Assembly (NCBI RefSeq): GCF_000014585.1
Contig: NC_008319.1
Span: 2,108,001-2,172,000 of the forward strand
Source of the DNA: Synechococcus sp. CC9311
GTDB lineage: Bacteria; Cyanobacteriota; Cyanobacteriia; PCC-6307; Cyanobiaceae
DNA length: 64,000 bases
Reading direction: 5' to 3'
Translations under genes and position numbers: made by a program
Shown: positions 3,841-35,307 of the stretch, piece by piece
Numbering within the stretch: the first letter of the stretch is position 1
How the letters are laid out: every line of letters starts with the position of its first letter
Notes under the pieces: model-generated
What the model saw: only the letters and a program-made list of their open reading frames with translations
What the model was told of the DNA's origin: nothing
The model's database searches: none

Positions 3841-3987
3841 TTAACTGCCCACGGAAGCAAGCTTCGTTGGAGAAAGGTGCGCAGAGGTGTAATCAATGCC
3901 CTCTGAATGGGCAGCAAAACAACGCTGAGCATCCTGAAGGCGTTGTGCCTTCAGCTCTTTCTCTTTGATCAGGAGGAGGGTGTTCAT
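3841..3987 (-). CDS. 48-aa protein of unknown function
   Basis: An ATG-started frame of 48 codons encodes a charged, helical protein (MNTLLLIKEKELKAQRLQDA...) with no signal peptide or membrane segment. A strong Rho-independent terminator lies just after its stop codon. The combination of clean start, amphipathic N-terminal helix and terminator makes it a likely real small gene. I do not recognise the family. Confidence 0.55.
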   Translation of the reverse strand: MNTLLLIKEKELKAQRLQDAQRCFAAHSEGIDYTSAHLSPTKLASVGS

Positions 3988-4038
3988 GGGAACGACCGAC
4001 AGCGCCTCAAACCCCGTTGCTTGTTTGAGATCGGACTG

Positions 4039-4064
4039 CGTCCCCTACTGGGGACCAACGTTTT
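4039..4064 (+). terminator. terminator-like hairpin
   Basis: A perfect GTCCCC-tact-GGGGAC hairpin is followed after five bases by a run of five T residues. No gene lies directly upstream on this strand, so it may end an unannotated small RNA or be incidental. Confidence 0.3.
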
Positions 4065-4315
4065 TCAAATATAGGGGAGTGAACGCGGATTGAAAAGCCA
4101 ACAACCGAACGTCCGATGGCGTAACAACCGATCCTTCCTCACGCCACAGGGCTCCGAGCGATCAAAACCAACATCAGTTGGCGCATAGCGGATCAAAAGC
4201 AAAGCTCACTGCGGTCAAAGCGAATCGAGAAAGAACCTGGACTGCAGGCACACACAATCTGTGAAACGTGATCTGAACCCTGAGATACTTGGTAATGAAG
4301 GCAGGAGAACCTCTA

Positions 4316-7190: not shown

Positions 7191-7861
7191 AGCTTTGCTT
7201 ACATCTCCTTTGAGGATAGGAACTCAAAGACATTTCGCAAATCAATTACAGCGGCAATAGAAGACACATCTCATCACAACTTTGTATCGCGGTGATCTGA
7301 CCTGCAGCCTGTCGCCGAGTGCACATGAGCACGGTTAAATCATTTGCAGTGAAGATCAGCCAATTAACCGCAACATATCAATTGCATTCATTCTAAACAG
7401 TTTTAATTAGCAGCACAATTTGATCGAGCAAGAGCTGCTCAAATGCAGCGACAAGAGCAGGGCAAAGCATTAGAAACTCAAAAGAGGCGAACCATGGCCG
7501 TTACTGGCTACAACATTGACATTTAGGTCCATTTTAAAAGGCATAGAAGATCACTAGTGAGTCAAATAACAGCTCACTGCCAACAGAAATCGCAGACAAA
7601 CCAATAGTGATTAGCCTCTATTCTTCAATTATTTCTTCTAAAAGATGCTGTATAGCGCCGCAAGCACCCATTCATTTCGGCCAGCATGTCTTTGGGATTT
7701 TAATGACTTGCGTCTTAACGTGGCTCCAAGGTCATCTGCTCGACTGCGCTCAAGAAGGTAGTCAGCATCAGACAACTGTCCCTTTTTATGTCTGCCAAAG
7801 AAGCAATGAGTTTTTGAGGTCTTGCGACTATCTGCAGTTTCGAGGACACGAACCTTGAATC
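7191..7861. other. gene-poor stretch
   Basis: Only short frames with poor composition are present; one on the plus strand (7607-7858) and one on the minus strand (7715-7912) show no motif or ribosome binding site. I see nothing else supportable before the RNA element at 7862. Confidence 0.4.
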
Positions 7862-7927
7862 AAGCCACTCTGAAAAAGAGCCAACGTTGAGGAGCAGTGG
7901 CTTAAAGCTCACACCAAAGACAGAGGG
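7862..7927 (+). promoter_or_regulatory. structured 5' leader, homologous to the RNA element at 19593
   Basis: A perfect 8-bp stem (AAGCCACT at 7862-7869 with AGTGGCTT at 7896-7903) encloses a 26-base loop with GAGCCAACGTTGAGGAGC. It is followed by a single-stranded GCTCACACC and then ACAGAGGG, which acts as the Shine-Dalgarno sequence of the ORF at 7934. The same order of parts occurs at 19593-19680, where paired positions differ in compensating ways and the last part is a terminator. This suggests a cis-regulatory leader or a small-RNA gene captured as a leader. Confidence 0.5.
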
Positions 7928-7933
7928 TTAATC

Positions 7934-8080
7934 ATGTCCATGGTTTTGATTCGATGGCTTGAAGCTGGCCGACGTACTGAGGAAACCGTTCCCGTCTCCA
8001 TGGCCCGCCACAGGCGGACTGAACTTGAAGCTCAAGGAGCGGTTGTGTATTGGAGTGAACGACTAGTCAACGACTATTAA
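7934..8080 (+). CDS. 48-aa basic protein behind a structured leader
   Basis: The frame starts at ATG 7934 with AGAGGG six bases upstream. The product (MSMVLIRWLEAGRRTEETVP...GAVVYWSERLVNDY) is soluble and rich in Arg and Glu. I do not recognise a family. Its tight placement behind the folded leader at 7862-7927 suggests translational or transcriptional control by that RNA. Confidence 0.55.
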   Translation: MSMVLIRWLEAGRRTEETVPVSMARHRRTELEAQGAVVYWSERLVNDY

Positions 8081-8530
8081 CAAACGGAATTGACGTCATC
8101 CATAGATATTAAATGCAAAAAATCTTTTGGCTACACTCCGAGCCAACCTTCCATGAGTGGAAGTCGGAATATTAAAGACGCTACGACCAACATTTTTCTG
8201 ATAAATCCAACAAGTGAGAGCAGTTGGAATTATCAAATAGATGACGAACATCTAGAGATAGATCTCTATCTCTCAATTGTTTCTTTCCTGTTACTCGGCA
8301 AGCCTTGTCAATCTAAGCGGCCCTGTGATCTTGCTCACATGGCTTCTAAATCACTGCAGCGAAGCACCCCTATCTGAACATCCCCGATCGGGTGAGATTT
8401 GGTTGGTTCCCATCCCCCAACCGAGGCTTCCGCATGTGGTCAAGGCTGCGATGACATTACGGACAGACGACCACAGGCTTTCACTGTGTTTTCACCACGT
8501 CGTCGTAGTAGAACTCGTAGAACTAAGCCC
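8081..8530. other. stretch upstream of the integrase
   Basis: A 95-codon frame (8090-8377) has no motif and a Ser/Asn-rich composition. No intact tRNA or obvious attachment repeat lies here, which would have been expected next to an active integrase. Confidence 0.3.
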
Positions 8531-9686
8531 ATGGGCAGACCGAAGAAGCCACTACAGAGAAGACCGAATGGTATCTGGTGTGTTCAGCTCTGGATAGATG
8601 GCAAGCGCCGAGTGAAGTCCCTTGAGACACGGGACCCGGTCAAGGCAGCAGCAAGGGCACAGCAGGCAATGCAAGAGCTAGAGGCAGAGGCAGCAACAGC
8701 GAGAGGCGAGAGCAGGTGGAGAGCAGATACAGCGGTAACTGAGTGGGACATCCCGACGCTTCCAGACGGAAGAAACGACTACGCCCAAGCAGTTGCCAAG
8801 CAGAAAACCTGGGGAAAGGTTGCAGCCAACGATGACCTGATCAAGCAGACCGACTGGTTGGAGCTAGTGAGGGAAGCCGAGGGCGTGCTGAAGCGCAAGC
8901 ACAAGAAGACCTACTCAGCCTCATGGCACAGGAATGTCGGCATCGCGATCAAGCAGTGCCCGTTCACTCTTCAGGAGGCATCACCGACAACCATCAGGGG
9001 CATGGATCAAGACGATGGAAGGGGATGGGCTCAGTGGCCTGACCATCAACAGCAAGTGCTCCTTGCTCTCTGGGTTGGTGCACACCTGCATCAAGTCAGG
9101 ACTCCTAGCTGGACACTCGAACCCATTCGCCTTGGTGGACTACGCAGCAGGCGAGGCCAATCACATCCCACCTGCAGAGGAGCAGGACTACAGAGGATTG
9201 AAGGGACTGGTCCCAACTCTGTTGAAGAGACAGCTCATCCCGATCCTCATTCAGACCTACACGGGGTGTCGGATCTCAGAGGTGAGGAGACGCAAGGCGG
9301 AAGACTTCGACCTTGACGAGGGAACCATGGAGGTAGTGGTGGAAACAGCCAAGAACAAGGCAAGCGAGAGAACCATCCCTCTCCCTCCTGTTGTGTTGGA
9401 TCTACTGAGGGACTTCGACTTTGTCTGGGGCTCAGCTGCTCACATCAACAAACAGATCCAGACAATCAACCCTGATCTCTCATCACACTCGTTCAGGCAT
9501 GGGCTCACCAAGCTGGGCAGAGATCTCCAGTCGAATGAGATCGCTATCGAAGCAATGCTGGGTCACAGGCTCAGTCACTCCGATATGGCCAACAGGCATG
9601 GCGGCAAGTACGGAGCAGAGGCGATGAGGAAGGCTGTGGCTCCTGCCTGGGAACAGCTCGACGAGTGGGTAGGACCAGTCCAATGA
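8531..9686 (+). pseudogene. tyrosine recombinase (integrase), frameshifted
   Basis: Two overlapping frames together make one phage-type integrase. The first, from ATG 8531, gives the arm/core-binding part (MGRPKKPLQRRPNGIWCVQLW onward) and reads correctly to about 8996. The second carries on from there (AWIKTMEGDGLSGLTINSK) to 9686 and contains the catalytic domain: Arg in GCRISEVRRRK, His-x-x-Arg in HSFRHG, the LGHR box, and a Tyr in HGGKYG. The switch falls in the GGGG run at 8997-9000; removing one G restores a single frame. The enzyme would catalyse site-specific integration and excision; it is probably inactive now unless the shift is programmed or a sequencing error. Confidence 0.8.
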
Positions 9687-9699
9687 GGACAAACAAATA

Positions 9700-10709
9700 A
9701 TGCCCAAAAAGCCAAAGGATTAACAGGTAAACGCTTTGGGCTTCTTGTTGCCCGTGAGTATTTTGTAAAAGAGTTTGAGAAAAAGCCTACGCGGCGTGGT
9801 TATTGGAGATGCGATTGTGATTGCGGAGAGACCGTAGAAACCTCTGCATCAAGACTTCTAGCCAGAAGAGTCGAGTCGTGCGGGTGCCAGAAAGGAGGAG
9901 GTAAAACTGAAAAGATTGGTGAAAGATATGGGATGCTAACTGTAGTCAAGAGATCAGAAAGTCTTGCCTGGAGTGGACAGAAAAGACGAGCATGGCTTTG
10001 CAAATGCGATTGCGGAGGAGAGATTGTCGTAAGCGGGAAGCATTTACGCAGTGGTCACACTCAAAGTTGTGGCTGCAGAGTAGTAGAGGTACCCAGGCAA
10101 CTTCGCCTCCAGGACATCACAGGCAAAAGGTACGTAAGACTTGCTGCAGTAAGAAGGTTGCCAGATGAGGAGCAAAGGATTAGGAGAAATGGACGACCAA
10201 TTGGAGACTGGGAATGGTTATGTGATTGTGGAAATAGTGTTGTTCTTCCGATTGGAGCTGTCAAATCCGGAGCAACACAAAGCTGTGGCTGCCTTGGCTT
10301 AGAAACTCGACCACTTAACTTCCATAACGAAGGGCACAGAGCTTATGCAGGAGATCCTGAATATGCCGAGAGGTAAAGCCTTATCTACTTAGTTGAAATT
10401 GGGGGTCAATTCGACAAGATCTGGATCGCATTTGATCCACAGGCAAGATTCGAAAAGGGTGAGGTAAGTGATGTTTGGTGGACGAAAAGCTTGAAAAGAG
10501 GACAGTGCTGGGCAGTAGAGCAGGCCGCATTGAAAGCAACTCAGGATTTTCAGGCAAATGATTTACCCAAAGACTTATCTAGCGGCGGATTTACCGAGTT
10601 CAGGTTTGGCATGGTTATAGAAGAGACTATTGAGATGCTCGAGGAGATGTGCGATGAGGGTAAAAATATTGGATGGCGAGATTTCTATGACAAATATGTT
10701 TTGGATTAA
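9700..10709 (+). pseudogene. triple zinc-ribbon + GIY-YIG-like protein, broken
   Basis: One frame after the integrase encodes three tandem modules of the type G-K-R-F-G...C-D-C-G...S-C-G-C (about 9720-9890, 9912-10080, 10110-10300). After a TAA at 10374 the same frame continues with YLVEIGGQFDKIWIAFDP and WAVEQAALKAT, the layout of a GIY-YIG-like C-terminal domain. The frame has no start codon near its beginning. ATG 9700 would be in frame if the A run at 9706-9710 had one more A. So the gene carries a 5' frameshift and an internal stop. The family is typical of phages and mobile elements and probably binds or cuts DNA. A shorter product could start at ATG 9933. Confidence 0.6.
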
Positions 10710-10777
10710 CTAACTACATTTGCAGGACAAGGACTGGCCCCGAGGGTGCCTATGTCAGGCACAAGGTTGCACCTGCC

Positions 10778-10975
10778 GTGCAATCACACAGGCCTACACA
10801 GGCCGTTATTACTTACCAGGACCAGACCCAATCGATCTCTCATCACATGGTTGGTGGGATTGATAGTGGTATGACCGTCAACGATTTCATTGACACGTTC
10901 AGTCAACTTTCACCTAAACCCAAGCAGCTACTCACAGTCCGGTCCTTCATCGACAGCTATAAGGTGAGCTCATGA
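10778..10975 (+). CDS. doubtful 65-aa ORF
   Basis: This short open frame lies between the broken zinc-ribbon gene and a small membrane-protein gene. Its C-terminal half (NDFIDTFSQLSPKPKQLLTVRSFIDSY) looks protein-like, the N-terminal half does not. There is no clear ribosome binding site. It may be a remnant. Confidence 0.25.
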   Translation: MQSHRPTQAVITYQDQTQSISHHMVGGIDSGMTVNDFIDTFSQLSPKPKQLLTVRSFIDSYKVSS

Positions 10976-11006
10976 CTGAGTGACTAGACAAGGCGGGCTT
11001 TATTCG

Positions 11007-11231
11007 ATGAGGCAGTGGATTCTTTTCGTTGTTTCGCTTCTTGGTATTTCCGTTGCGGCCCTTAATTTCTTAAGACCTTACCTTCAGGCCAAGTACGAGA
11101 GAGAGTGCCCAATGGTCGAGCGAGACATACTTCATCCGGGAGGGGGAAAGGGCCGATTAGCTAAGTGGGAAAGGGCTAACCGCTGGTGGACTTGGCTGGT
11201 CGTCAAGCCTGTAAGGGACTATGTCGACTAA
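11007..11231 (+). CDS. small membrane protein, coupled to next gene
   Basis: From ATG 11007 the 74-residue product has an N-terminal hydrophobic helix (ILFVVSLLGISVAALNFL) and a basic, Trp-rich tail (ANRWWTWLVVKPVRDYVD). Its stop codon overlaps the start of the following gene by 11 bases, so the two are probably translated together. The function is unknown. Confidence 0.45.
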   Translation: MRQWILFVVSLLGISVAALNFLRPYLQAKYERECPMVERDILHPGGGKGRLAKWERANRWWTWLVVKPVRDYVD

Positions 11232-11670
11232 AACACTCCCCTGCCTCATCTGCGGAACGCCGGTAACGATCAAGCAGTACGCAGAACTAGCAAAAACTGC
11301 TGTGCGTGGAGACTCGGGATGCCAACGAGTTGCAAGAGGAGAACCTAGAGAGGCCCCTGGGATTGATCTCTACACGAAAGTTGGGGCTCTCAGAGCTGCT
11401 GCTGGCGTTGCACCGGGAGAAGCTCCAAACGAAGAGCAGATGGCCAAGATCCGTGATTCGTTTAAGACAAAGAAGGAAGAAGAGGCTTGCCCAAAGAACA
11501 AAAAGAGTGCTGCATACCGATTCGGCTATTGGGGAGGGATGGTGCTGTATGTCTTCGTTCTTCCTGAACGTTTCTTTTTTGCTTTGGATAAGCTCCCAGA
11601 AATAATTCTGTCGCCTACTCCCTCCGATTATGAATACTGCCCTCGAGATCACTTCGGACGAAACTGCTAA
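11221..11670 (+). CDS. protein with N-terminal CxxC and a membrane segment
   Basis: The 149-residue protein begins with a C-L-I-C-G knuckle (residues 8-12). A polar Lys/Glu-rich middle follows, then an aromatic hydrophobic stretch (GYWGGMVLYVFVLPERFFFAL), and Cys residues recur near the C-terminus (EYCPRDHFGRNC). The knuckle and later cysteines could bind zinc. No family is recognised. It overlaps the preceding gene by 11 bases. Confidence 0.45.
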   Translation: MSTKTLPCLICGTPVTIKQYAELAKTAVRGDSGCQRVARGEPREAPGIDLYTKVGALRAAAGVAPGEAPNEEQMAKIRDSFKTKKEEEACPKNKKSAAYRFGYWGGMVLYVFVLPERFFFALDKLPEIILSPTPSDYEYCPRDHFGRNC

Positions 11671-11883
11671 TCAAACAAGCTCGATAGCTTGGTGGGCGAA
11701 GATAAACAGATACGTCCTCTCTAAGGTGACTACGTGCCTCTGAAGCATGCTTTAATTACCTCATAGGCGAGATCTCTCATCCTTCGGCCAATCAGAGGCC
11801 TATTGTAGGCAATCCTGAGAGGAGCAAGGTTTAAAAGTGTCATTAACAATAGCTAGATACTGGTCCCGGGCAAACACAAAGAC

Positions 11884-12039
11884 TCACGCCTTCTTCTCCT
11901 CTACGTGGTCTTCACAGAGGTTTCTGAGGTAAGAGCCCAGAGGCCTGCGGTCCTTCTTCGCTAGCACCTCAAGCTCGGCCCTCGTCTCATGACTGACAAC
12001 GAAGACGATCCTGACATTCTTGGTCTCGTCGATTGGCAA
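11884..12039 (-). CDS. small ribbon-helix-helix protein (CopG-like)
   Basis: A 51-residue frame has the ribbon-helix-helix layout: a strand (VRIVFVVS), a helix (HETRAELEVLAKKDRR), a turn (PLGS) and a second helix (YLRNLCEDHVEEKK). Such proteins are dimeric DNA-binding repressors, often of plasmid, phage or toxin-antitoxin systems. The frame is closed upstream by TAG, and the only start is TTG at 12039 with AGGA nine bases before it. No toxin gene is evident beside it. Confidence 0.5.
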   Translation of the reverse strand: MPIDETKNVRIVFVVSHETRAELEVLAKKDRRPLGSYLRNLCEDHVEEKKA

Positions 12040-12155
12040 GGGTTGATCCTGCTAGTGGGATTGATGACCGGAGCATATCAACAGCGGATAGGGTAGCAAG
12101 GCTTAACACTTAGGTATGAACCAATGCAATACTGCGTGCATCCACGGGAGATCCA

Positions 12156-12407
12156 ATGGCGCAGATGTATCTAGTGACCCTTAGCAAGGCGATAGGTAAC
12201 GACCTAGACGCCCAGAAGTGGATGCTCGGGAAGGCATGCAATCGAGTGAGAAGCCTTGGGAAGGTCAGCCTGACAACCATGTATTCCTCAAGGGAGGACC
12301 TTGAGTCACTGGTCCTTACCTTCAACTTGATCATCAGCAAGATCCTGCTCATTCATCAGATTGTCTGCAATCGTTTGGATCAGCAGCAACTCATCAAGCT
12401 CATCTAA
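12156..12407 (+). CDS. doubtful 83-aa ORF
   Basis: The frame (MAQMYLVTLSKAIGNDLDAQ...) has fair composition but no ribosome binding site and no known motif. The C-terminal part is hydrophobic (SLVLTFNLIISKILLI). The surrounding 12040-12603 region otherwise shows no gene. Confidence 0.3.
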   Translation: MAQMYLVTLSKAIGNDLDAQKWMLGKACNRVRSLGKVSLTTMYSSREDLESLVLTFNLIISKILLIHQIVCNRLDQQQLIKLI

Positions 12408-12603
12408 TGATGTGAAAAGCCCTTTGACGTAGCGGAGCATCGTTATCAACAGAACGCCTCGCAGTCCGCCAAGTTCATAGGCGGGCTGCCTGTGTAGTGG
12501 TAACTCATTTAGGCGAAAGATGTGCTCACCTCCAGTCTTATGACGACTCTCTTGGCATTTGAGTTACCTTGATGACGTGAAACTTTCTGCCCGAAAATCT
12601 AAT

Positions 12604-14484
12604 TCACAGATCTTTATCATTAATTCTGGCTGAATTTAAAGTGCCAGAAAGTGCTGAAAATATTAAATTGCCACCATGAAATATTGCCGCTTGAGGGGTG
12701 TGAGTCTTAAACGCAAATAGTGTCTTAACATTTCCATTAGCGTCTATGGTTCTGATTGCATTATTAAACATATCGGTCACAATTAATTTCTGACCAGATA
12801 CACTAATATGCTGAATACCGTTAAAAGACGCGCTCATTCTAAAGCCATCAAGAAAAGATCCTCCATATTGGTTTTTAGAGGGAATGGGTCGCCCAGCGAA
12901 AAGGCAAACTTCATCCATATTAGAAAGAGGCAAAGAAACTAAGTAGTGACTGTAACTATTAGCGACTATCAATTTATCTTCAAATACTGCCAAAGACAAC
13001 GGTCGATTCAACGCCATATCCAGTGCAGGCATACACACATCAATGCCAACATTTTCATTGTAAATCTCATTCATGCCAGATCCTAGAATTGTTTTTACCA
13101 TGTCACTTTTAAGGTCGATTTGACGTACTTTGTCATTCCATGCATCTGCAATGTACAAACTCCCATCAAATAAAAGTAAATCTCGTATTACCGCAAATCT
13201 AGCCTCTAATCTTGAGGCATCTGAATTTCCATATTCAGATTCGGAGCCTGCGAACAAAGCAAATTCTCCATTTTGTAAGTTCAATTTAAATATGCCATGG
13301 TTTGAGGCCAAATATAAAAAATTATTTATTTCATCCAATGCAAAAGCTCTAAGAGATTCAAATTTATGTCCATTCAATAAATGGTTCCAAATGGCAGTTC
13401 TATTTGGATCTATCAAACGATGAAAAGATTTTGTTGATATGTTGTATCTAATAATAGATCCCGTAGGTGTCATTGCAAGCAATGTTTTCCCGTCAGCCAG
13501 TAGCTGAAACTGTGTAATTACTGATGACAAAAAAGCATTTTCTCTGGATATGACAACGTCTTTCCTTTTTGTTTCAAGATCAAAAAGACTTATCTCGTCT
13601 GAATCAGAGTCAGTGATGACGAAGGTATTTGCCTTGAGGCTATCTCGAATTGAGGAAATATGCACAAACCTATCAGACAATACAGATGTGGTGCCATTTT
13701 TAAACATTTTTAATTCCCATCGAGCACCATAAATGAAACCATTGTCGTCGATACACTTGATTCCATTGGAATAGGGTCTGTCTGAAAATAAATATTCGAC
13801 ACCATTTTTTGATTCACGATAAAATGTTACGTCTCCATTAATATTTTGAAGGGAAATTACTAACCTTTCGCCACAAATATCAAAACCCATTAAATTGCGA
13901 TTTAAAATTTCTCTGGATAAAAGCTTGGCTGGAATTAATAAGTTGTCTTGAAGCTTCAAGAAACGTTTTCTTCCGACTTCTCCATCAAAAACAAAAATTC
14001 CTCGTTCGGTTTTTTTCGCAAACTGTGGAAAATTCAGTACATAGTTCTCGTCATTAAGCGTATAACTATTTGCAATAAATTTAATTTTTTTAGGGCTATG
14101 AAGGCGTATTCCTTCTTTGCTAAATGACAGCCATTGAGAATGGTTTAACTTAATGACTCTGAAAGTTGTTAAATTTTCACTGGGGGTACTGATGGTTGAT
14201 AAATTTAATTTTGATGCTTGTCCACCGCTGCCGGCAACAACAGAAAGCTTCCCATCATAAAGGCGTTTAAGGTATTTATTGCCGGTGTCTGCAACAATAA
14301 ACTCATTTTTTGCTAATTGTATTGCATCTTCAGGCAGTAAGATATTGGCGGATAAGGCTTCTGTTGTCGCGCTGGGATCCTGGCCCAAGAGTATATTTAC
14401 TTTGCTATCGCTTGACTGATTGCTTCCCAAGAAATAAAATATCCATGAAAAGAATAAAAGCGAAAGATGGATGATTAGTGGCAT
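12604..14484 (-). CDS. exported NHL-repeat beta-propeller protein
   Basis: The 626-residue protein has an N-terminal hydrophobic leader (residues ~5-20, LSLLFFSWIFYFLG) and is then built of repeated strands typical of NHL/SMP-30 propellers. Examples are EFIVADTGNKYLKRL, SLYIADAWNDKVRQIDL and KLIVTDMFNNAIRTIDA. Such propellers serve as binding platforms; no catalytic residues are evident. The gene is noticeably AT-rich compared with the core half of the window, suggesting recent acquisition. It lies alone, just downstream of decayed mobile-element genes. Confidence 0.65.
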   Translation of the reverse strand: MPLIIHLSLLFFSWIFYFLGSNQSSDSKVNILLGQDPSATTEALSANILLPEDAIQLAKNEFIVADTGNKYLKRLYDGKLSVVAGSGGQASKLNLSTISTPSENLTTFRVIKLNHSQWLSFSKEGIRLHSPKKIKFIANSYTLNDENYVLNFPQFAKKTERGIFVFDGEVGRKRFLKLQDNLLIPAKLLSREILNRNLMGFDICGERLVISLQNINGDVTFYRESKNGVEYLFSDRPYSNGIKCIDDNGFIYGARWELKMFKNGTTSVLSDRFVHISSIRDSLKANTFVITDSDSDEISLFDLETKRKDVVISRENAFLSSVITQFQLLADGKTLLAMTPTGSIIRYNISTKSFHRLIDPNRTAIWNHLLNGHKFESLRAFALDEINNFLYLASNHGIFKLNLQNGEFALFAGSESEYGNSDASRLEARFAVIRDLLLFDGSLYIADAWNDKVRQIDLKSDMVKTILGSGMNEIYNENVGIDVCMPALDMALNRPLSLAVFEDKLIVANSYSHYLVSLPLSNMDEVCLFAGRPIPSKNQYGGSFLDGFRMSASFNGIQHISVSGQKLIVTDMFNNAIRTIDANGNVKTLFAFKTHTPQAAIFHGGNLIFSALSGTLNSARINDKDL

Positions 14485-14556
14485 ATTCTATTAAACAAAA
14501 AACGATTCACGATAGCGTGCAGCTTGCTACTTGGGCTCATTAATTATAACATTTAG

Positions 14557-14946
14557 CACCATGCCCGCCGCTTCGCAGAGGACTTCGACATAGAGCGGCT
14601 GGTCCTGCTGAAGATTCAGCTCGAAGATCTTCGCTTAATTCTTCGTCGATTCGATAAAGTCCTGGGCACCGTCATAGCGATGCAAGCCAGCAGCTTTCGC
14701 ACCGTCATCACGGATCGACCCATGTACGCATGGCGTCTGGAAGAGATCGAGAGAGTAAGGACTGGTCCTACGGGACATAACTCAAGTCTTACTCATATCG
14801 ACTCAGTCAATGACCTGATAGCTCACAACATGCTTGCTCAGCATCATGCTGTTGCTCAGCATCATGCTGTTGCTCAGGCGATTGGACGATATATCGAATC
14901 AAACAATGACCACTCAATCTTATTATCTGAAGTGTGCTCGATGTGA
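14557..14946 (+). pseudogene. 5'-truncated ORF with internal repeat
   Basis: A frame open from 14557 (after a TAG) has no ATG until 14680, yet the part before it is protein-like and helical (RFAEDFDIERLVLLKIQLEDL). I read it as a gene that lost its 5' end. Its 3' part contains an 18-bp tandem duplication that encodes AQHHAV repeats. The family is unknown. Confidence 0.35.
14836..14876 (+). repeat. 18-bp tandem direct repeat
   Basis: The unit GCTCAGCATCATGCTGTT occurs twice in perfect tandem (14836-14853 and 14854-14871), followed by the first five bases of a third. It falls inside a truncated ORF. Confidence 0.85.
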
Positions 14947-15064
14947 AGCTGAGGCTACACTGACTGCCACTGAATTACGTGCTGCTGAGATGCTTACAAG
15001 GCATCCAGGCTGGTGCCGTTGTTCTCAACCAAGCTATTCAATGATCCAGGGCAAGCTTAAGTAA
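14906..15064 (+). CDS. 52-aa putative zinc-ribbon protein
   Basis: An ATG frame of 52 codons carries two cysteine pairs, C-A-R-C near residue 10 and C-R-C near residue 38, separated by a helix (ATELRAAEMLTRH). This is compatible with a small zinc-binding fold. No ribosome binding site is obvious. The family is not recognised. It overlaps the tail of the truncated ORF before it. Confidence 0.45.
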   Translation: MTTQSYYLKCARCEAEATLTATELRAAEMLTRHPGWCRCSQPSYSMIQGKLK

Positions 15065-15835
15065 TAGCCCTGGGACCAGCAACCCTATCTAATTAATCCT
15101 GAGAGGCTCCTGCATGCCCCTGGAAGTCACCTTAAGTGTTAGCTACAGAGATGCATAAGGGATAACCTTTCGACGCTTACAGAGCCTCCTGAGTGTCACC
15201 TTCAAAAAGAAATGAGATATTTTTCTGAAGGGACTACCCATAACGCGACGGCGGCGATTCCCCCCGTGGCCGGCCTCCGTTCGAGAAATCGAAACCCCTC
15301 TTGCAATCGAAGCAGGCCCTGGGGGTAGGTGAAATCATTGGGGAGGACGGCCTGGCCCTCGGTGCCACAGCTACCGCTGCAGGCCGCTCACAGGCGATTC
15401 TGAGGGGGCATCATCACATCCATGACCGATGGCATGGCCAGATCCATTGGCATGACGGCAATCCCACTAGATGCTGTATCTAGCTGGCGACGACACCGTC
15501 GTAATACTCCACGGCTACGCCTGCTGATGGGCACTGGATAGTCATCACCTACCGCAGGTGATGGGACCAGTCCCTGCTCATGCGCACTGAGTAGATGTGC
15601 TTAGAAATAGATGTCCTCGTTTCTATTTTTGTGATCATCAGTCCGTCGGATTTTCTCTAGTGAGGGACTAGGGAGACTGGTCCACGTCCGTCGTAGAACC
15701 CCTCGCGGAAAGAGGGCTGAGTTCTACCTCGATCCAGTGAGGGACTTGACAGTGAGGCAAGGCAGAGATGCCAATCCCAGCGGCTACCCAAATGTGTTTT
15801 GTATAGCTAGACGTTGATAGTGATCTTCAAGCCCT
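15065..15835. other. gene-poor stretch
   Basis: No convincing gene is present. A frame at about 15633-15815 without a start codon reads plausibly (RAEFYLDPVRDLTVRQ) and may be a gene remnant. A 60-codon frame at 15301-15483 is His-rich but lacks any support. Confidence 0.35.
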
Positions 15836-16036
15836 ATGAGACCTGCACTCGCCACACTCGTTATAGCTCTTGCAGCACCCATGGCTGTTACAGCTGTTCC
15901 TGGGGTACCTGACTATGTCATGAGTGACATCACTGAGAAATGCCTCGAAGATGTTGCTGATGATGATCAAGCAACTGAATCTGACGAAGATTGCATTGCA
16001 ATAGCTGTAGAGAATTACAAGAAGGCCAACCCATAA
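15836..16036 (+). CDS. small exported protein
   Basis: The 66-residue product starts with a clear signal peptide (MRPALATLVIALAAPMAVTA). An acidic 45-residue mature part with two cysteines follows (KCLEDVADDDQATESDEDC). Cleavage would fall after VTA or thereabouts. The two cysteines may form a disulfide in the periplasm. The family is unknown. Confidence 0.55.
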   Translation: MRPALATLVIALAAPMAVTAVPGVPDYVMSDITEKCLEDVADDDQATESDEDCIAIAVENYKKANP

Positions 16037-16246
16037 AGCGACTCGTGGGCAAACATCACCGCCACCTGGCTACACCCGCAAACAAGACCTCAGAGCTTGG
16101 TCGCAAGCAAAGTATTGCCCCTAAATAGTCATTGATGCACTAGCAATTAAGCCCTAATCAGAAACTTACCCAATAAAATATTGAAATAAGAGCTGGCATG
16201 CCTGAGTAGAGCAGACCACACCCGAAACCCATCTAAATTTTATTTA

Positions 16247-17665
16247 ATGAATCAATCAGTCATTAAAGGCGATTTTCAAAGTACTCAGGGGAAGGCCATT
16301 CCAGCATTGTCAATGGCTCCCCATTGGCAGATGCTGGAGGCGATTCTCAGGCCGATCGCCTACTACCGACGCTGCTTTTTCCGCAACTCCGGTGTCGTTC
16401 GCGTGAGAATGTCTCCCACTCTGCCTCCCCAGCAGGTGCTCATCAGCGATCCATCTGTGATTAAAGAGCTGATTAATGAAGACGGGGGTCGCCATATCAC
16501 TGCACCAGGACAATTGAACGGATTGCTGTCTCAAGTTTTAGGCAAACACTCCATCATTTTGCTCGCACCCGCTACGCATCGTCAGAGAAGGAAGTTGCTT
16601 ACTCCTCCATTTCATGGAGAACGGCTGAAAGCCTATGGACAGTTGATTTCCTCCTTAGCTGATCAATCCCTGATAGATCTCAATGTTGGAGATGTCTTTG
16701 ACGCACGGGAACAAATGCAGGGCATCACCATGCGAGTGATTCTCACCGCAGTTTTTGGTCTGCATGAAGGGGATGCTTTTCGACAACTTGAACGGTCGCT
16801 CGCTTCGAGCATCAGCATCCGTTCCGGTCCACTTGGGTCTCTCCTGTTGTTCTTCCCTTTTCTTCGCAGGGATCTTGGGAGATGGAGTCCAGGAGGACGG
16901 ATTAAAGCAGCAGATGCCGCCATCCGGCGGTTGTTACTCGAACAGATCGCTTCACGACGCAGAGCGGTGGAACGATGCGGTGAAGAGAACATGTCAGCCG
17001 ATATTCTCAGCCTGTTGCTGTCCTGCAAAGATGATGAAGGACAGGGGCTCAGTGACGATGAATTACACGATGAATTGCTGACGCTTTTGTTTGCAGGTCA
17101 CGAGACCACCGCTACAGCTCTGACTTGGGCGTTCTACTGGATCCATCGCAATCCCTTAGTCCTAGAGCGGTTGATGAATGAACTCAATGGTTTACTTGAC
17201 CACTCCGATCCCGAAGCGATTGCAAGGCTCCCATACCTATCAGCAGTCGTAAATGAAGTTCTGCGCATCCATCCGGTAGCAATGCTGACGTTCCCTCGTC
17301 GCATCGAATCCGCCATCACATTGGGAGGATATGCCTTCCGCTCGGGTGATGTGGTGATGGCATGTATTCAGGCCGTCCATGAACGCCCTGATCTTTATCC
17401 CAAACCACTGCAATTTAATCCTGAACGTTTCATGAATCAGACCTACGGTCTCCATGAATTTCTTGCTTTCGGCGGAGGTTCTAGACGCTGCATTGGCGCA
17501 GCTCTAGCTCTCTATGAAATGAAATTAATTTTAGCCAAAATACTCCTAAACAATCAGTTCGAACTCACTCCTAAAAGCAATCGTTGGAACAAACCACGTC
17601 GGCGCGGCTTCACTCTTGGGCCTTCGATTCCTGTGAAGTTAAAGATGGTGTCGTTACGTCCTTGA
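16247..17665 (+). CDS. cytochrome P450 (CYP110-like)
   Basis: The 472-residue protein is a full-length P450. The I-helix oxygen-binding motif A-G-H-E-T-T-A is near residue 285, the K-helix E-x-x-R is in EVLRIHP near residue 331, the PERF motif is near residue 390, and the heme-binding loop F-G-G-G-S-R-R-C-I-G is near residue 410 with the cysteine ligand. Cyanobacterial CYP110-type enzymes hydroxylate fatty acids, alkanes or terpenes; the substrate here is unknown and no terpene synthase or ferredoxin gene is adjacent. The start at ATG 16247 gives the normal length. Confidence 0.88.
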   Translation: MNQSVIKGDFQSTQGKAIPALSMAPHWQMLEAILRPIAYYRRCFFRNSGVVRVRMSPTLPPQQVLISDPSVIKELINEDGGRHITAPGQLNGLLSQVLGKHSIILLAPATHRQRRKLLTPPFHGERLKAYGQLISSLADQSLIDLNVGDVFDAREQMQGITMRVILTAVFGLHEGDAFRQLERSLASSISIRSGPLGSLLLFFPFLRRDLGRWSPGGRIKAADAAIRRLLLEQIASRRRAVERCGEENMSADILSLLLSCKDDEGQGLSDDELHDELLTLLFAGHETTATALTWAFYWIHRNPLVLERLMNELNGLLDHSDPEAIARLPYLSAVVNEVLRIHPVAMLTFPRRIESAITLGGYAFRSGDVVMACIQAVHERPDLYPKPLQFNPERFMNQTYGLHEFLAFGGGSRRCIGAALALYEMKLILAKILLNNQFELTPKSNRWNKPRRRGFTLGPSIPVKLKMVSLRP

Positions 17666-17857
17666 TTGCCCGACATATCCTTGCCAATCACTTTCGCTGC
17701 TCAACAAGGTCCTCTATGGACAATTCACGAGGGCAGGGAGCTGAGACAACCGCCCTCAGTTGTACGGCTGGAGCTTTCAGGACATGATTTCACAAGCTAA
17801 TTGTCTCAGGGCTGATCAAGCAGATAGCAAGGACTCATAACCTCGGCTGCCAGAAGA

Positions 17858-17895
17858 TAAAAAGCATCACGCCCGTAGAAGCTGCAGGCGTGATG
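17858..17895 (-). terminator. Rho-independent terminator of the metallothionein gene
   Basis: On the minus strand a perfect 9-bp stem (CATCACGCC with GGCGTGATG, 13-base loop) is followed by C and UUUUUAUC. It begins six bases after the metallothionein stop codon. Confidence 0.85.
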
Positions 17896-17900
17896 ATTGG

Positions 17901-18074
17901 TTAACAGCCGCAACTACACTCGGTATGTTCTGCGCTGTTGGATGGTTCTTGATTGATGTGCGCAGTTGCACAAGCTTCTGAGCAGAAAAGCTTGTTCCCA
18001 TACATGGCTGCTGTTGCTTCCTCGATACTGCATGTACAAGGTGGGCAGTCGCACCGAACAAGATTTGTTGTCAT
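17901..18074 (-). CDS. bmtA: cyanobacterial metallothionein (SmtA/BmtA type)
   Basis: The 57-residue protein has nine cysteines in the SmtA spacing: C8, C10, C13, C15, then C31 and C35 around the C-S-E-A-C-A helix, and C53, C55 and C57 at the end, with His residues at 39 and 50. It starts MTTNLVRCDCPPC and has GGAGAT upstream of the ATG. Bacterial metallothioneins of this family hold about four Zn2+ ions through Cys and His ligands and buffer zinc or cadmium in the cytoplasm. A strong terminator follows directly. No smtB-like regulator is adjacent and I found no clear operator upstream. Confidence 0.9.
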   Translation of the reverse strand: MTTNLVRCDCPPCTCSIEEATAAMYGNKLFCSEACATAHINQEPSNSAEHTECSCGC

Positions 18075-18398
18075 GGGAATCTCCGAAATCGACCTCTTTG
18101 GTCTATGCCTGCTGCAGGCAGCTTGAAAGGTGTAACAGCCGTAATAAAAGGTTCGGTTTCAAGACTTGCCTAAGGAGGCTCTACGAAAGCGACTCTTCTT
18201 CTGATCAGTCAAGAATGTTCTTAGAGGTTATTTCATTTGATTGAAGAACCAGTTAATGGACACTCTTTAGTGAAGCAGCAGCGACATACATCTGATGCAA
18301 TATTTGAATTTCTTTTGGGGTCATGATTACTGGCTTCAATGTAACAAGCTGACTTCTTAATTTAAGCAATTACGTTTGATCCAACGACTGAGTTGTCA
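18075..18398. other. upstream region of the metallothionein gene
   Basis: This stretch must contain the metallothionein promoter. I searched by eye for a SmtB-type or FUR-type inverted repeat and did not find a convincing one. A frame over 17966-18244 on the plus strand is antisense to the metallothionein gene and is not supported. Confidence 0.35.
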
Positions 18399-18599
18399 AT
18401 GGATCACGCCAAAGAAGCCGACAAAGAGCCCACTGCGCGAAAACAGACAAGCATTTTTTCAATGAACGGAACAACACTGCCTACAGATCAAGTCAACGTA
18501 GCTTCGAGACCAAATAGGCCCACGACAACCAAAAGCAATCAGAATCAATCATCTAGGAAGAGCTTATTGGCAAACGCTATATATGGAGGACGTGGGTGA
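18399..18599 (+). CDS. doubtful polar 66-aa ORF
   Basis: An ATG frame encodes a hydrophilic, Asn/Ser/Thr/Lys-rich protein (MDHAKEADKEPTARKQ...) that would be largely disordered. There is no good ribosome binding site. It may be real but has no recognisable domain. Confidence 0.3.
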   Translation: MDHAKEADKEPTARKQTSIFSMNGTTLPTDQVNVASRPNRPTTTKSNQNQSSRKSLLANAIYGGRG

Positions 18600-18649
18600 C
18601 AGCTAAGCACTTGATATGGTGTTTGAATTTGTGAAAAGCAATGATGCAC

Positions 18650-18835
18650 CTACTTCCAAAAGATTTCGGCGTAGTCGCTTGCAACCATTACATGAAATTG
18701 GTTGGCGCTCTTGCCCCTCAGCTCGGGGGTGTCCATACAGGCCAACCGGATCTTTAACCGGTGGTTGTAGTGGGTATCCCCGCTGTAACAGCTTTTGATG
18801 GTCAAGATTTCGGGGCTGCAGTGAGAGGGAAGCAC
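18650..18835 (-). pseudogene. decayed thermonuclease (SNase-like) fragment
   Basis: The minus-strand frame contains the core of a staphylococcal-nuclease-like domain: EILTIKSCYSGDT, then K-I-R-L-A-C-M-D-T-P-E-L-R-G, which matches the family's G-D-T and I-R-L-x-x-x-D-x-P-E motifs. The continuation expected after ASDY is found in another frame (NLLEVGASLLFTNSN, about 18610-18670), and no signal peptide or proper N-terminus is joined. I take it as a frameshifted and truncated relic of an exported nuclease gene. Confidence 0.5.
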
Positions 18836-18848
18836 CCAACAGCATCAG

Positions 18849-19028
18849 TTGTGGTCTGCAACCGAGCGTGAGCACGCCATTACCACTATTGGAGGTTTTG
18901 CCATTGAAGGCAATGCGCGATTTGACCGATGGCAGGAAGCATGCAACGGATGGAAACTAAGTTCATCGAGATCGGAGGAGCTAATGACAGCCGACACTCC
19001 ACCAGCGCAGATCGCTGAAGCAGACTGA
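18849..19028 (+). CDS. possible 59-aa protein with TTG start
   Basis: A frame starting at TTG 18849 reads in a protein-like way (REHAITTIGGFAIEGNARFDRWQEACNGW) and ends at 19028. No ATG start and no ribosome binding site are present. It may be a fragment of a larger lost gene. Confidence 0.28.
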   Translation: MWSATEREHAITTIGGFAIEGNARFDRWQEACNGWKLSSSRSEELMTADTPPAQIAEAD

Positions 19029-19255
19029 CTTTCTGGCCCCTGCTCCAACAGTCTCAACAATGACCTGGGTTGGTCGATTGGTAGGTACACATCAGATACG
19101 TCACGCCATCGATGCTCCGCTTGCACCGCCCCAGGTGCCCTAGGAGAAACCGACCCAACACCTAGAGCAATAGCCCCAGGGCGCCTCTAGCCAGAAGCTT
19201 CGACCCCTCATCTTTACTGTCGTGATGGGTTCAACCATGCATGAACGAGCGAGTT

Positions 19256-19293
19256 AGGCCGTCTTTCCACTGGGGAGGGCGGCCTTCCTCTTT
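19256..19293 (+). terminator. Rho-independent terminator
   Basis: AGGCCGTC pairs with GGCGGCCT over 8 bp (one G-U) and is followed by TCCTCTTT. The transcript it ends is unclear; the possible ORF at 18849-19028 lies upstream. Confidence 0.55.
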
Positions 19294-19382
19294 GCATATC
19301 AGGAAGGTCAGGATCACTCTCAAGAAAAAACTCACAGTAAACAAGTGTTTCTACTTAGACCTGATTCATTCGCCTTAAGAGA

Positions 19383-19451
19383 ATGTTTGCAGCGCTCGGG
19401 GTCTTTCTAGTGATTGGAGTGGGGCTCTTTGTCCTCTCGATCGGGGAGTGA
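19383..19451 (+). CDS. possible 22-aa membrane peptide
   Basis: ATG 19383 opens a 22-codon frame that is almost wholly a hydrophobic helix (MFAALGVFLVIGVGLFVLSIGE begins the product). Single-helix peptides of this size are common in cyanobacterial membrane complexes. No conserved photosynthetic subunit is recognised and it could be chance. Confidence 0.3.
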   Translation: MFAALGVFLVIGVGLFVLSIGE

Positions 19452-19592
19452 TGCTCAATGATGAGATGATCAAGAACAACGGTCTGCTCTGAATCCACCG
19501 GCTGGAAAGCTCTAGTGGAAAGAATCTCGCTGATCATTGCGGCATTGAGGTCTTGCGCCTAACTGCTGATCCAAGGTCAGCAAACCAGTAGC

Positions 19593-19680
19593 GGAGCCAT
19601 CTTGAAAGGGAGCCAACGCTGGGGAGCAGTGGTTCCACCTCACACACCAAGGCAGAGGATTGGAGAACCTCTGCTTTTTT
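19593..19680 (+). ncRNA. Yfr1-like small RNA candidate
   Basis: The element has three parts. The first is an 8-bp stem (GGAGCCAT at 19593-19600 with GTGGTTCC at 19629-19636) around a 28-base loop. The second is a single-stranded segment with ACCTCACACACC. The third is a Rho-independent terminator (GCAGAGG at 19652-19658, CCTCTGC at 19668-19674, six Ts). The layout and the CCUCACAC core recall Yfr1, a cyanobacterial sRNA with an unpaired conserved ACUCCUCACAC segment between two hairpins. The match is partial (9 of 11). A homologous copy at 7862 shows compensating changes in the stem, supporting the fold. Confidence 0.5.
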
Positions 19681-20220
19681 GGTGCATAAGTGGTTTTGCG
19701 GGTATGTTTTCAACTGTCTTGTTCATTGACAATGATTAAATACAAACCATTCTTATGGTTCCCCATCACCCACCCCGTTGGACATCTGTCTTACGGGGCC
19801 TTTTTATAGCTGACTATATTGCCGCCTCCAGTCCATCTAAAACACAAACAATCCAGATCACCAAATCGGCGTAAACCCAGCTTATTTGATAAAAATCTCA
19901 CTCTTGGAGGGGCGACACACAAGCAGATATGAAAACCAGGCAATTAGCTAGCCATGCTTACCAAGAAAGCTTGTCTAGACAAAGTTGCACAGACGTGTCA
20001 TCCATGCATTCCGAAGATGAAACAGTCACAGCCTCGATCCATCAAGAAACAATATGAGAAAGCGGAACAAGAAGATGCAACGTGTCACTTTGTGATTGAT
20101 CTCGCAGAGACCTGCTACAAACTATCCCACAAATCAGCCTGGACAAAAGATTAACAAATCATGCGTCTTGACGGCATATTGCAAGGGCTTGAGTAAAGTT
20201 ATAAAGCGAAAAGGTATCAA
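19681..20220. other. gene-poor stretch before the exported protein
   Basis: A 66-codon frame at 19954-20154 is Lys/Cys-rich (ACLDKVAQTCHPCIPKMK) and might be real but lacks support. A weak CCCGT/ACGGG hairpin followed by TTTTT lies near 19772-19807. I see no other feature. Confidence 0.3.
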
Positions 20221-33933: not shown

Positions 33934-35307
33934 TTAGAACTGCCAGAATGCGCCAAGTCTCCCACCAACGGAAGGAGTGGAGTAATAGTCAGTGTTCGTA
34001 CCTGGGGTGTAAGAGATCGCAGCATTGATCCAAATGTCTTGATTAACCTTGGCTACGCAACCAGCAGCTCCAGCCCATTTTGACCCGAAAACACCCGTGC
34101 CAAGGCCACAACCATACTTCTTGTTGCCAGTTGTGAGGTTGGGAATAGCAGATACTGCTAAAGCCAAAGCACCCACTGATTCAACTGCGGAATCAACTTC
34201 TTTCAAAGATCTTTCGATATCATTGACTTTTGATTCAAGTTTGCGAATGCTGGGTATGATGGGTAATTGTGCTTTACCGACTACTCCGTTGGGATCAATA
34301 GTTAAGACCTCAGTTTCGTCTCCACCTGCAAGTCCAGGAATACTCACCGTAGAAGATCCATCAGATGCACCAAGTACAACATCTGGTGCGGCGAGGGTTG
34401 CACTTTGATCTGTAAGTGTAAGTGTTCCTGAGTTAGTTCCAGCTCGTAGAGTAATTGAGCCATTTGGAGCGATGATTTCTACATTACGCCCAGAATTTAA
34501 GCTTACATCATTGTTAGCGGTAACATTAAAGTCATTGCCCGCAACATTATCAATATCCTGTTGAGAATTTAAGCTTACATCATTGTTAGCGGTAACATTA
34601 AAGTCATTGCCCGCAACATTATTAATATCCTGTTGAGAATCTATGATAACATTGTCGTCAGAAGTTAAATTAAGTGCTGCGTTTGTGCCGATAGCTTCTA
34701 AAGTAATTTGCCCATCTGAAGAAATTTCTATTTCGCCGTTGCCAGTAGGGCTGTTAGCTTCGAGGCTTATGGAGGAAGATTGAAGTCCGTCAGAAAGTAT
34801 ATCTATGTTGCTATCAGAGAGCGAATCAGACTGAATATCTATATTTGACTCTACGTCGCTTATAGCTAATAGCCTAGTTGAAGCAACCCCATCAGCGTCT
34901 GAAACTAGGCTGGATTGTGCAATGCCAGCAGCTTCTGCAGAGACTTGTGTTACCGCATCAAGAATTGAAACTGCTTGAACCTCTGTGAACGCACCAGCTG
35001 CTCCTTCAGACCTGAATATTGCTTCTGCTCCCACAGATGGGTCGCCATCAGTTGCAAATTCAATAGAGTTAAAGGCATCGCCGGTGATGTTTCCGTTATC
35101 TTCAATTGTAAGAACAGTCCCAGATGAACCAATGATTGAGAAATCGCCTGGGCCGCCGGTTGAGAGGACAATGCCAAGAGGAAGGTCTACATCTACCTGA
35201 GCGTGTGCTGAATTAATTCCAATTAATCCAAGACTTACTGCAACAAAAGTTACTTCTCTAAGTCTTACAAGGTACCTAAACCTTTGAAAGTGTTTTTGTT
35301 TTGACAT
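33934..35307 (-). CDS. YadA-like trimeric autotransporter (type Vc)
   Basis: The 457-residue protein has an extended signal peptide (residues ~1-36, ending INSAHA). A beta-rich passenger of short repeated strands follows, including two nearly identical 24-residue units with DVSLNSQQDI and AGNDFNVTANN. A coiled-coil stalk comes next (IRKLESKVNDIERSLKEVDSA), and then a C-terminal YadA-type anchor (AVSAIPNLTTGNKKYGCGLGTG to RLGAFWQF, ending in aromatic Phe). Such proteins form trimers with a 12-strand outer-membrane barrel and act as adhesins. The anchor has two cysteines that could form a disulfide. The gene is AT-rich compared with the core genome. Confidence 0.8.
   Translation of the reverse strand: MSKQKHFQRFRYLVRLREVTFVAVSLGLIGINSAHAQVDVDLPLGIVLSTGGPGDFSIIGSSGTVLTIEDNGNITGDAFNSIEFATDGDPSVGAEAIFRSEGAAGAFTEVQAVSILDAVTQVSAEAAGIAQSSLVSDADGVASTRLLAISDVESNIDIQSDSLSDSNIDILSDGLQSSSISLEANSPTGNGEIEISSDGQITLEAIGTNAALNLTSDDNVIIDSQQDINNVAGNDFNVTANNDVSLNSQQDIDNVAGNDFNVTANNDVSLNSGRNVEIIAPNGSITLRAGTNSGTLTLTDQSATLAAPDVVLGASDGSSTVSIPGLAGGDETEVLTIDPNGVVGKAQLPIIPSIRKLESKVNDIERSLKEVDSAVESVGALALAVSAIPNLTTGNKKYGCGLGTGVFGSKWAGAAGCVAKVNQDIWINAAISYTPGTNTDYYSTPSVGGRLGAFWQF
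34492..34635 (-). repeat. 72-bp tandem duplication inside the autotransporter gene
   Basis: Two adjacent 72-bp copies (34492-34563 and 34564-34635) differ at only one base that I can see (CAATAT versus TAATAT near the ends). They encode the repeated 24-residue passenger unit. The near identity points to a recent duplication. Confidence 0.9.

Follow-up and report, generated by a model that had tools for sequence, protein, structure and literature searches.

Two homologous elements, W1 and W2 (at about 7817 and 19548), lie in the 64,000-nucleotide stretch of Synechococcus sp. CC9311 DNA analysed here (the window; G000:C1:2108001-2172000, G000 being the host genome, of 2,606,748 bases). We conclude that they probably belong to a multicopy family of predicted trans-encoded structured small RNAs that would act in the Yfr1/Yfr2/Yfr10 network, one member having been fused to a small gene as its leader. 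We regard as real a family of structured small RNAs, of an already known general type and without a match in Rfam, and the conversion of one member into the leader of a duplicated small gene; the role in the Yfr network, which is predicted from pairing, is plausible.

Organization of the two elements

Comparison of the window with itself aligned 7814-7929 with 19545-19661 (118 bp, 73.7% identity, E 1.4e-9). An earlier note on this DNA had described the two sequences as homologous over about 65 bases, starting at 7862 and 19593; that alignment is real and both sequences are as described, but the shared block begins about 45 bases further 5', near 7814 and 19545. At the level of sequence, the family is characterized by a core hairpin (H3), a conserved linker and, in most members, a Rho-independent terminator; the close copies also have a C/U-rich tail (Table 1).

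H3 is a two-part hairpin with an inner 3-bp stem in both W1 and W2. Its outer stem, given as 8 bp in the earlier note, is 7 bp long in W2 (GGAGCCA/UGGUUCC, 19609-19615 with 19630-19636) and 6 bp long in W1 (GAGCCA/UGGCUU, 7878-7883 with 7898-7903). In the alignment, UCACAC is found in the tail of 8 of 8 close copies and CUCACAC in 7 of 8. CAGAGG of W2 is part of a terminator 5' arm, as had been proposed: GCAGAGG pairs with CCUCUGC ahead of six U residues, the outer pair being G-C in W2 and A-U in two copies of the relative G014 (G14c and G14d). A standard terminator scan found none at 19652-19680 of W2 because it limits loops to 3-8 bases and the W2 loop has 9; a script with wider limits finds it. 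In G014, the orthologue of the region around W2 (19545-19822) shares 86% identity with it over 278 bp.

Table 1. Coordinates of W1, W2 and their parts in the window.
Feature	Position	Strand	Evidence
W2, terminator-ended family member (about 134 nt; conserved block from about 19545)	19548..19681	+	Matches to models R1, R2 and R3 (W2 itself is in the models)
W2 5' hairpin H2, UGCUGAUC...GGUCAGCA	19564..19582	+	RNAalifold on nine copies; 3 of 7 pairs double-changed; not recovered in the 17-row alignment
W2 conserved linker GAGCCAUCUUGAAA	19594..19607	+	Alignment; its GAGCCA repeats the H3 5' arm and could pair with the H3 3' arm
W2 core hairpin H3, tip CUGGGGAG at 19619-19626	19609..19636	+	6 of 10 pairs double-changed (17 members); none of 500 shuffles reaches the covariation score
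W2 tail CCUCACAC, between H3 and terminator	19638..19645	+	Sequence; absent in diverged members
W2 Rho-independent terminator GCAGAGG-(9 nt)-CCUCUGC-U6	19652..19680	+	Sequence, script
W1, terminator-less family member used as leader	7817..7932	+	R1 match 7817-7949, 127.3 bits; R2, 125.1 bits (W1 itself is in both models)
W1 core hairpin H3, tip UUGAGGAG	7878..7903	+	Alignment A3, pair counts
W1 tail GCUCACAC	7907..7914	+	Alignment
W1 CAGAGGG, counterpart of the terminator 5' arm, now Shine-Dalgarno-like	7921..7927	+	Sequence; terminator not found in W1 or its orthologue
48-aa open reading frame, second copy of a conserved small protein (canonical gene G000:C1:2093257)	7934..8080	+	89% identical paralogue

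Distribution of the family

A search of 60 genomes (G000 and 59 relatives) with W2 as the query recovered one further copy in G000 (at 973012) and four in G014; with W1 and its G014 orthologue (G14W1), this made eight sequences, from which we built the covariance model R1. When run on 400 genomes of the taxonomic family, with stricter filters and 8 candidates scored per genome (a setting that can miss diverged members), R1 gave strong matches in G000 and G014 only, along with a diverged G000 copy at 1324756 on the minus strand (E 0.009). The close copies thus number nine, four in G000 and five in G014. Adding the 1324756 copy (model R2) brought in new matches in G013 and G030 (E 1e-4 and 3e-4), and adding these in turn (model R3) brought in G007, G020, G005 and a second site in G030 (E 2e-5 to 5e-4), each of these members, like the 1324756 copy, being recovered by a model that did not contain it. 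The covariance-model search of marine Synechococcus genomes suggested in the earlier note therefore found homologues, with covariation (see below).

At E<=0.5, family matches occur in 8 of 31 genomes of the genus, seven of them at E<1e-3 (15 members). The eighth, G026, is marginal: it has three matches (E 0.06-0.37), one of which was rejected. The other two (L138 and L139; E 0.16 and 0.37) were kept in the 17-row set for their tip and terminator-like end; without them the set comprises 15 members in 7 genomes, and the 11-row pair count given below excludes both. No match was found in G010, which its coordinates identify as WH7803.

Of the 17 members, 11 were compared with Rfam and none had a match at the element; searches of 401-base slices at E<=10 gave only matches far below the gathering scores, to unrelated families (7 and 2). 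An exact pattern had no match in viral contigs and none in a phage collection, and a pattern scan of a collection of genome contigs, from which near records may be left out, returned nothing. In the accessible open-licence literature, we found nothing describing the family.

At E<=1, R1 matched 20 of the 400 genomes, G000 and G014 included, with 19 places in the other 18. Eighteen of the 19 places were inspected by eye, and only one (L033, in G266), a doubtful case, had a similar hairpin. R3 run on the neighbouring genus to which G266 belongs matched 1 of 34 genomes, at E 0.04; the match was L033 again and was not accepted.

Comparative evidence for the RNA fold

The folding energies of the two elements are ordinary (z -1.34 and -1.05; 17 of 200 and 31 of 200 shuffles fold equally well), and the evidence for structure is therefore comparative. 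As the earlier note had supposed from the two sequences, the fold appears to be under selection, as judged from covariation across the family. In 17 sequences, H3 shows 17 double-changed cells in 6 of its 10 pairs (a count reached by 2 of 500 shuffles, a control that does not keep the relatedness among sequences), 91.6% of the cells are paired, and the covariation score is reached by 0 of 500 shuffles; slid controls are 25-47% paired. In 11 sequences there are 6 double-changed cells and the score is again reached by 0 of 500. H1, H2 and H3 taken together on the nine close copies have 7 double-changed pairs (reached by 9 of 500 shuffles) and 87.2% of cells paired, with a score reached by 0 of 500 and slid controls far lower; the 5' extension of these nine copies forms two small hairpins with double changes.

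The plus strand is the predicted RNA strand: 16 of the 167 H3 cells in the 17 members are G-U pairs, which are possible only on that strand, and the U tracts also lie on it. The H3 tip is CUGGGGAG, UUGAGGAG or CUGAGGAG in 14 of 17 rows and, in the remaining three, CAGGGGAG, CUGGGAAG and UUGAGGGG, each one base off (consensus [C/U]UGRGGAG). A decayed protein gene, which the earlier note had raised as a possible source of the similarity, is spoken against by one-base insertions and deletions in the tail, as a result of which no reading frame is maintained among the copies.

Several results weigh against the proposed fold or soften its support. Taken alone on the nine close copies, H3 is weak, its score being reached by 19 of 500 shuffles and its double-changed pairs by 93 of 500; in the 11-sequence set the count of double-changed pairs is reached by 90 of 500. 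Alignments A3-A6 were fitted to models already containing H3, and two weak rows, L136 (which has no such hairpin and no terminator) and L033, were dropped before A6 and the 17-row count. On the 17 rows RNAalifold returns H3 only, without H1, H2 or the terminator, so that support for H1 and H2 is confined to the close copies. Finally, there is a competing pairing. The linker starts with GAGCCA, letters identical to the H3 5' arm, and both can pair with UGGYUC; on the nine close copies the pairing of the linker with the H3 3' arm fits 96.3% of cells (a value that shuffles reach in 196 of 500 cases), and fragment folds of W2, G0b and G14d prefer it. On 17 members this linker pairing has 79% of cells paired (reached by 370 of 500 shuffles) and no covariation. 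Since H3 covaries and the linker pairing does not, we take H3 to be the ancestral, selected pairing; the linker pairing may represent a second conformation of the close copies or a remnant of duplication.

We also considered that the sequences might be a small repeat, mobile or recombinational, that is not an RNA and has dyads serving as sites in the DNA, as would be in line with their multiple copies, variable location and the local repeats near some copies. H1 and H2 could indeed be DNA dyads, although their pairs covary. For the family as a whole, we consider this very unlikely: pairs covary by position, the G-U pairs point to a single strand, the terminator stem of diverged members is a different one in an unchanged position, and no inverted repeats of at least 12 bases were found around either window copy.

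Predicted transcript ends

A strict script found a Rho-independent terminator at the end of 12 of the 17 members. Weaker ones were seen by eye in G0b, G14b and G026b (of the G026 pair, only G026a is positive with the strict script), and the script found none in W1 or in its G014 orthologue. Diverged members have a different terminator stem (GACGGUC/GACCGUU and similar) in the same place, which suggests that it matters that the RNA ends there. Conserved structure together with a terminator of its own, two general traits of trans-encoded bacterial small RNAs, is thus predicted for the family and for W2, W1 being without the terminator. In 7 of 17 members the script found another terminator starting 45-65 bases upstream (a weak one was seen by eye in G005), so that several family genes sit behind another short transcription unit.

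Two points are less favourable. On alignment A2 only 67.9% of terminator cells are paired (A2 is misaligned there and includes two terminator-less rows), and no sigma-70-like promoter was found on the plus strand at 19300-19860 or 7500-8150. As a consequence, the 5' end of W2 could be near 19545 or near 19593.

Other short units adjoin some copies. A second repeated unit, with a terminator UGGGAGG...CCUCCCAUUUUU, occurs twice in G000:C1:1320000-1329000 (L089, 1222-1558 and 4394-4729) and again upstream of G14c (L087, 4994-5092) and G14d (L088, 5878-5932), which gives the impression of short RNA genes arranged one behind the other; a piece of it with the terminator recurs in G013, G023 and G030. 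About 100 bases behind G0b and G14b lies a short unit (L084, 5150-5250, and L085, 5250-5350) with a family-like terminator, CCAAAGACAGAGG (R2, E 0.015 and 0.004); in the unit behind G0b a promoter-like TTGACC...TATAAA can be recognized by eye.

Fusion of W1 to a duplicated small gene

W1 and its orthologue in the sister species lack the terminator 3' arm and run into a duplicate of a psbA-divergent small gene, with CAGAGG placed as the ribosome-binding site. Indeed, the SD-like (Shine-Dalgarno-like) AGAGGG that the earlier note had assigned to the 48-aa open reading frame (ORF) is present at 7922-7927, six bases before the ATG at 7934. In DNA, the window copy is homologous to the canonical gene from 7941 onward, the place where the terminator copies have their 3' arm. 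Both this boundary and the absence of a terminator from W1 and its orthologue support the idea, put forward in the same note, of a small RNA duplicated into a gene leader. The junction is identical in the G014 orthologue, and the fusion therefore probably predates the split of the two species.

The 48-aa protein is 89% identical to its paralogue over residues 3-47, and 159 of the 300 genomes sampled from the taxonomic family encode relatives; Pfam has no family for it at E 0.01. The canonical gene is divergent to a gene that we take to be psbA, partly from the known D1 sequence, with a PhotoRC-I RNA (RF01716) between the two, and the same arrangement is found in WH7803. The other basis of this assignment is the association of PhotoRC-I with probable psbA genes (PMC2864571). 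Over 42 codons, the W1 gene and the canonical gene differ at 4, 1 and 13 first, second and third positions (12 codons changed synonymously and 4 otherwise), a bias that points to coding selection. Constraint seems weaker between the two fused orthologues: of the 9 codons that changed between them, 4 did so non-synonymously, and there are further differences in the C-terminal residues, which this count does not cover.

The W1 arrangement raises the question of whether the whole family consists of cis-acting leaders or attenuators, the terminator versions stopping downstream transcription and the SD version being the open form of the switch. W1 is a leader, the close copies have a single 3' arm for which linker and H3 arm compete, and in both leader copies ACUCUG of the linker is able to pair with CAGAG of the SD arm, with a probability of 0.97-1.0 in a W1 RNA ending at the start codon. 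However, extending the RNA by 22 bases or more lowers this probability to 0.18 or less in W1 and to 0 in the G014 orthologue; in an orthologue RNA that has the full 5' part, it does not exceed 0.25 even if the RNA stops at the start codon. Because the SD pairing is strong in short fragments and lost on adding ORF sequence, we do not claim a switch. Moreover, no common downstream gene (ORFs of at least 90 aa, by eye) was seen around G0b/G14b (orthologous loci), G14d and L089, and continuation into an ORF is known for just 2 of the 17 members; as these two are orthologues, they count as one event. We therefore hold a family of cis-acting leaders to be unlikely.

Beside the fused copy, at 8399-9686, lies a phage-type integrase (PF00589 in the 8934-9686 frame). 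An overlapping ORF in another frame (8399-9316) resembles by eye the first part of an integrase, and the gene may be broken.

Relation to known cyanobacterial small RNAs

Yfr1 is defined by a perfectly conserved ACUCCUCACAC between two stem-loops (PMC2190773). The earlier note had likened the elements to Yfr1 (RF01116). The layout does correspond: as in Yfr1, a hairpin is followed by a C/U-rich stretch with CUCACAC and then by a Rho-independent terminator. The motif does not, the corresponding stretch being CCACCUCACAC in W2 and AAAGCUCACAC in W1, and the intact undecamer is found in 0 of 17 members. Both window elements also lack UCCU, the exchange of which in a Yfr1-type motif abolished binding to the target ppa (PMC6778093). 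The family further differs from Yfr1 in having a longer conserved block (about 134 nt) and in being multicopy. Total length and stem-loop spacing are less telling: Yfr1 is 54-69 nt long, and W2 would still have 88 nt if it began at 19593; 16-20 unpaired nt separate the two stem-loops of Yfr1, with 13-15 nt between H3 and the terminator in W2 and no second stem-loop at that place in W1. With the Rfam model (gathering cut-off 38; positive controls L061, 65.8 bits, and L060, 67.7 bits), no Yfr1 was found in the window; G000 has its own Yfr1 elsewhere (L061), and the exact ACUCCUCACAC sites of G000 (772947, 875843 and 1026254) all lie outside the window.

Yfr10 is, like the family, a cyanobacterial small RNA with a Yfr1-type motif and little else conserved, near Yfr2 genes in some strains; it carries the intact motif in a loop atop a stem (PMC6778093), whereas the motif of the family is degenerate and follows the hairpin. 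In G000, Yfr10-like RNAs with CUCCUCACAC adjoin Rfam Cyano-1 (Yfr2) genes at G000:C1:785347 (L130), 772947 (L059) and 1026254 (L063). Could the family members be genuine Yfr1 or Yfr10 homologues with a decayed motif? The identical order of parts (hairpin, CUCACAC, terminator) and weak R2 matches on Yfr10-like RNAs in G000 and G007 (E 0.06 and 0.17) are in keeping with this, yet with no intact undecamer, no Rfam Yfr1 match in the window, and a G000 that keeps its own Yfr1 and Yfr10-like RNAs, such descent is improbable.

The Yfr2 family is characterized by the Cyano-1 motif (PMC8400943). Yfr2/Cyano-1 (RF01701) resembles our family in being multicopy in marine picocyanobacteria and in having a purine-rich stretch able to pair with the Yfr1 motif, located in its 5' part as opposed to the hairpin tip. 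The Cyano-1 model, which finds L059, L063, L087, L128 and L130, detects nothing in the window at E 0.3. Located 280 nt upstream of G0b is a Cyano-1-like gene (32.1 bits, below threshold), and a full Cyano-1 lies 2.5 kb from G14c on the opposite strand. Yfr103, too, is a multicopy non-coding RNA of marine Synechococcus with no assigned function, 290-328 nt long in CC9605 and with homologues in WH7803 and many strains (PMC5069720). As the family was not found in WH7803, Yfr103 is probably a different RNA.

Predicted pairing with the Yfr network

The H3 tip can form 7 of 7 pairs with the Yfr1 sequence CUCCUCA in 15 of 17 members (13 of them with one G-U pair) and 6 of 7 in the other two, and the GGGG to GAGG change in W1 and in the diverged G000 copy keeps this pairing. 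For the tail, a possible partner is GUGAG in the 5' portion of Cyano-1 (GUGAGGAG in two of the three G000 Cyano-1 RNAs, GUGAGGAA in the third).

These pairings have to be set against the following. Only four bases of the tip are unpaired as long as the inner stem stays closed, any SD-like purine run would pair with CUCCUCA, and the CUCACAC tail is missing in diverged members. Whole-length duplexes with two of four Cyano-1 RNAs clearly beat shuffles in 1 of 18 cases (G14d, 4 of 300 shuffles; W1 was borderline at 17 of 300); as the Yfr1 control failed, these energies speak neither for nor against the pairing.

It is conceivable, and the most serious alternative in our judgement though we lean against it, that this is a new small-RNA family functionally unrelated to Yfr1 and Yfr2, in which the linker GAGCCAUCUUGAAA (which includes a complement of AAGAUGG) serves as a seed for mRNA starts and H3 as a stability element or a competitor of the linker. 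The linker is strongly conserved among the close copies, and diverged members have lost the tail, whereas GCCAUCUU is retained in G013 and G030; across the 17 members, however, the H3 tip is conserved more widely than the linker.

A recombination or duplication event probably fused a small-RNA gene to the small gene, the former small RNA now being a 5' leader that retains its pairing elements. If the family does act in the Yfr network, the RNAs would act by base pairing, CUCCUCA of the Yfr1/Yfr10 core being the partner of the tip, and GUGAG of Yfr2 that of the CUCACA tail; they might serve as decoys or competitors for Yfr RNAs, and the fused small gene could come under the same control. A more elaborate version, which we put forward as speculative and rather doubtful, is that the family carries both faces of the network, a Yfr2-like UGRGGAG tip and a Yfr1-like CUCACAC tail, and acts as a network sponge, perhaps with a two-fold switch, since the linker and the hairpin arm compete for the same partner; one of its genes would have turned into an mRNA leader by loss of the terminator and capture of the duplicated psbA-adjacent gene.

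Other features of the window

A Glutamine-II riboswitch lies at 4006-4063 (minus strand); its flanking sequence (3850-4076) matches two places in G014, each with a Glutamine-II match of its own. The frame at 17901-18074 (minus strand) encodes a prokaryotic metallothionein (PF02069). The region at 18374-18624 contains, by eye, pieces of a nuclease-like ORF, and its first 250 bp recur about 1.7 kb before G14c. Two overlapping 110-bp copies (88% identity, 72-base offset) occupy 34492-34673, about 0.9 kb 3' of the tmRNA gene.

Significance

The prevailing view is that most known bacterial small RNAs with sequence in common with mRNAs arose from mRNAs. A documented conversion of a small RNA into a leader, in a genome that retains terminator-ended paralogues, would offer a clear-cut case for studying how a regulatory RNA becomes a leader. 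The family would extend the small catalogue of regulators in globally important phototrophs, being multicopy in G000 and in its relative. Its importance would grow if the role in the Yfr network or the conversion of a small RNA into a leader holds true; were the sponge model correct, W1 would be a small RNA caught in the midst of its conversion to a cis-regulatory leader, with the captured gene placed under the Yfr network.

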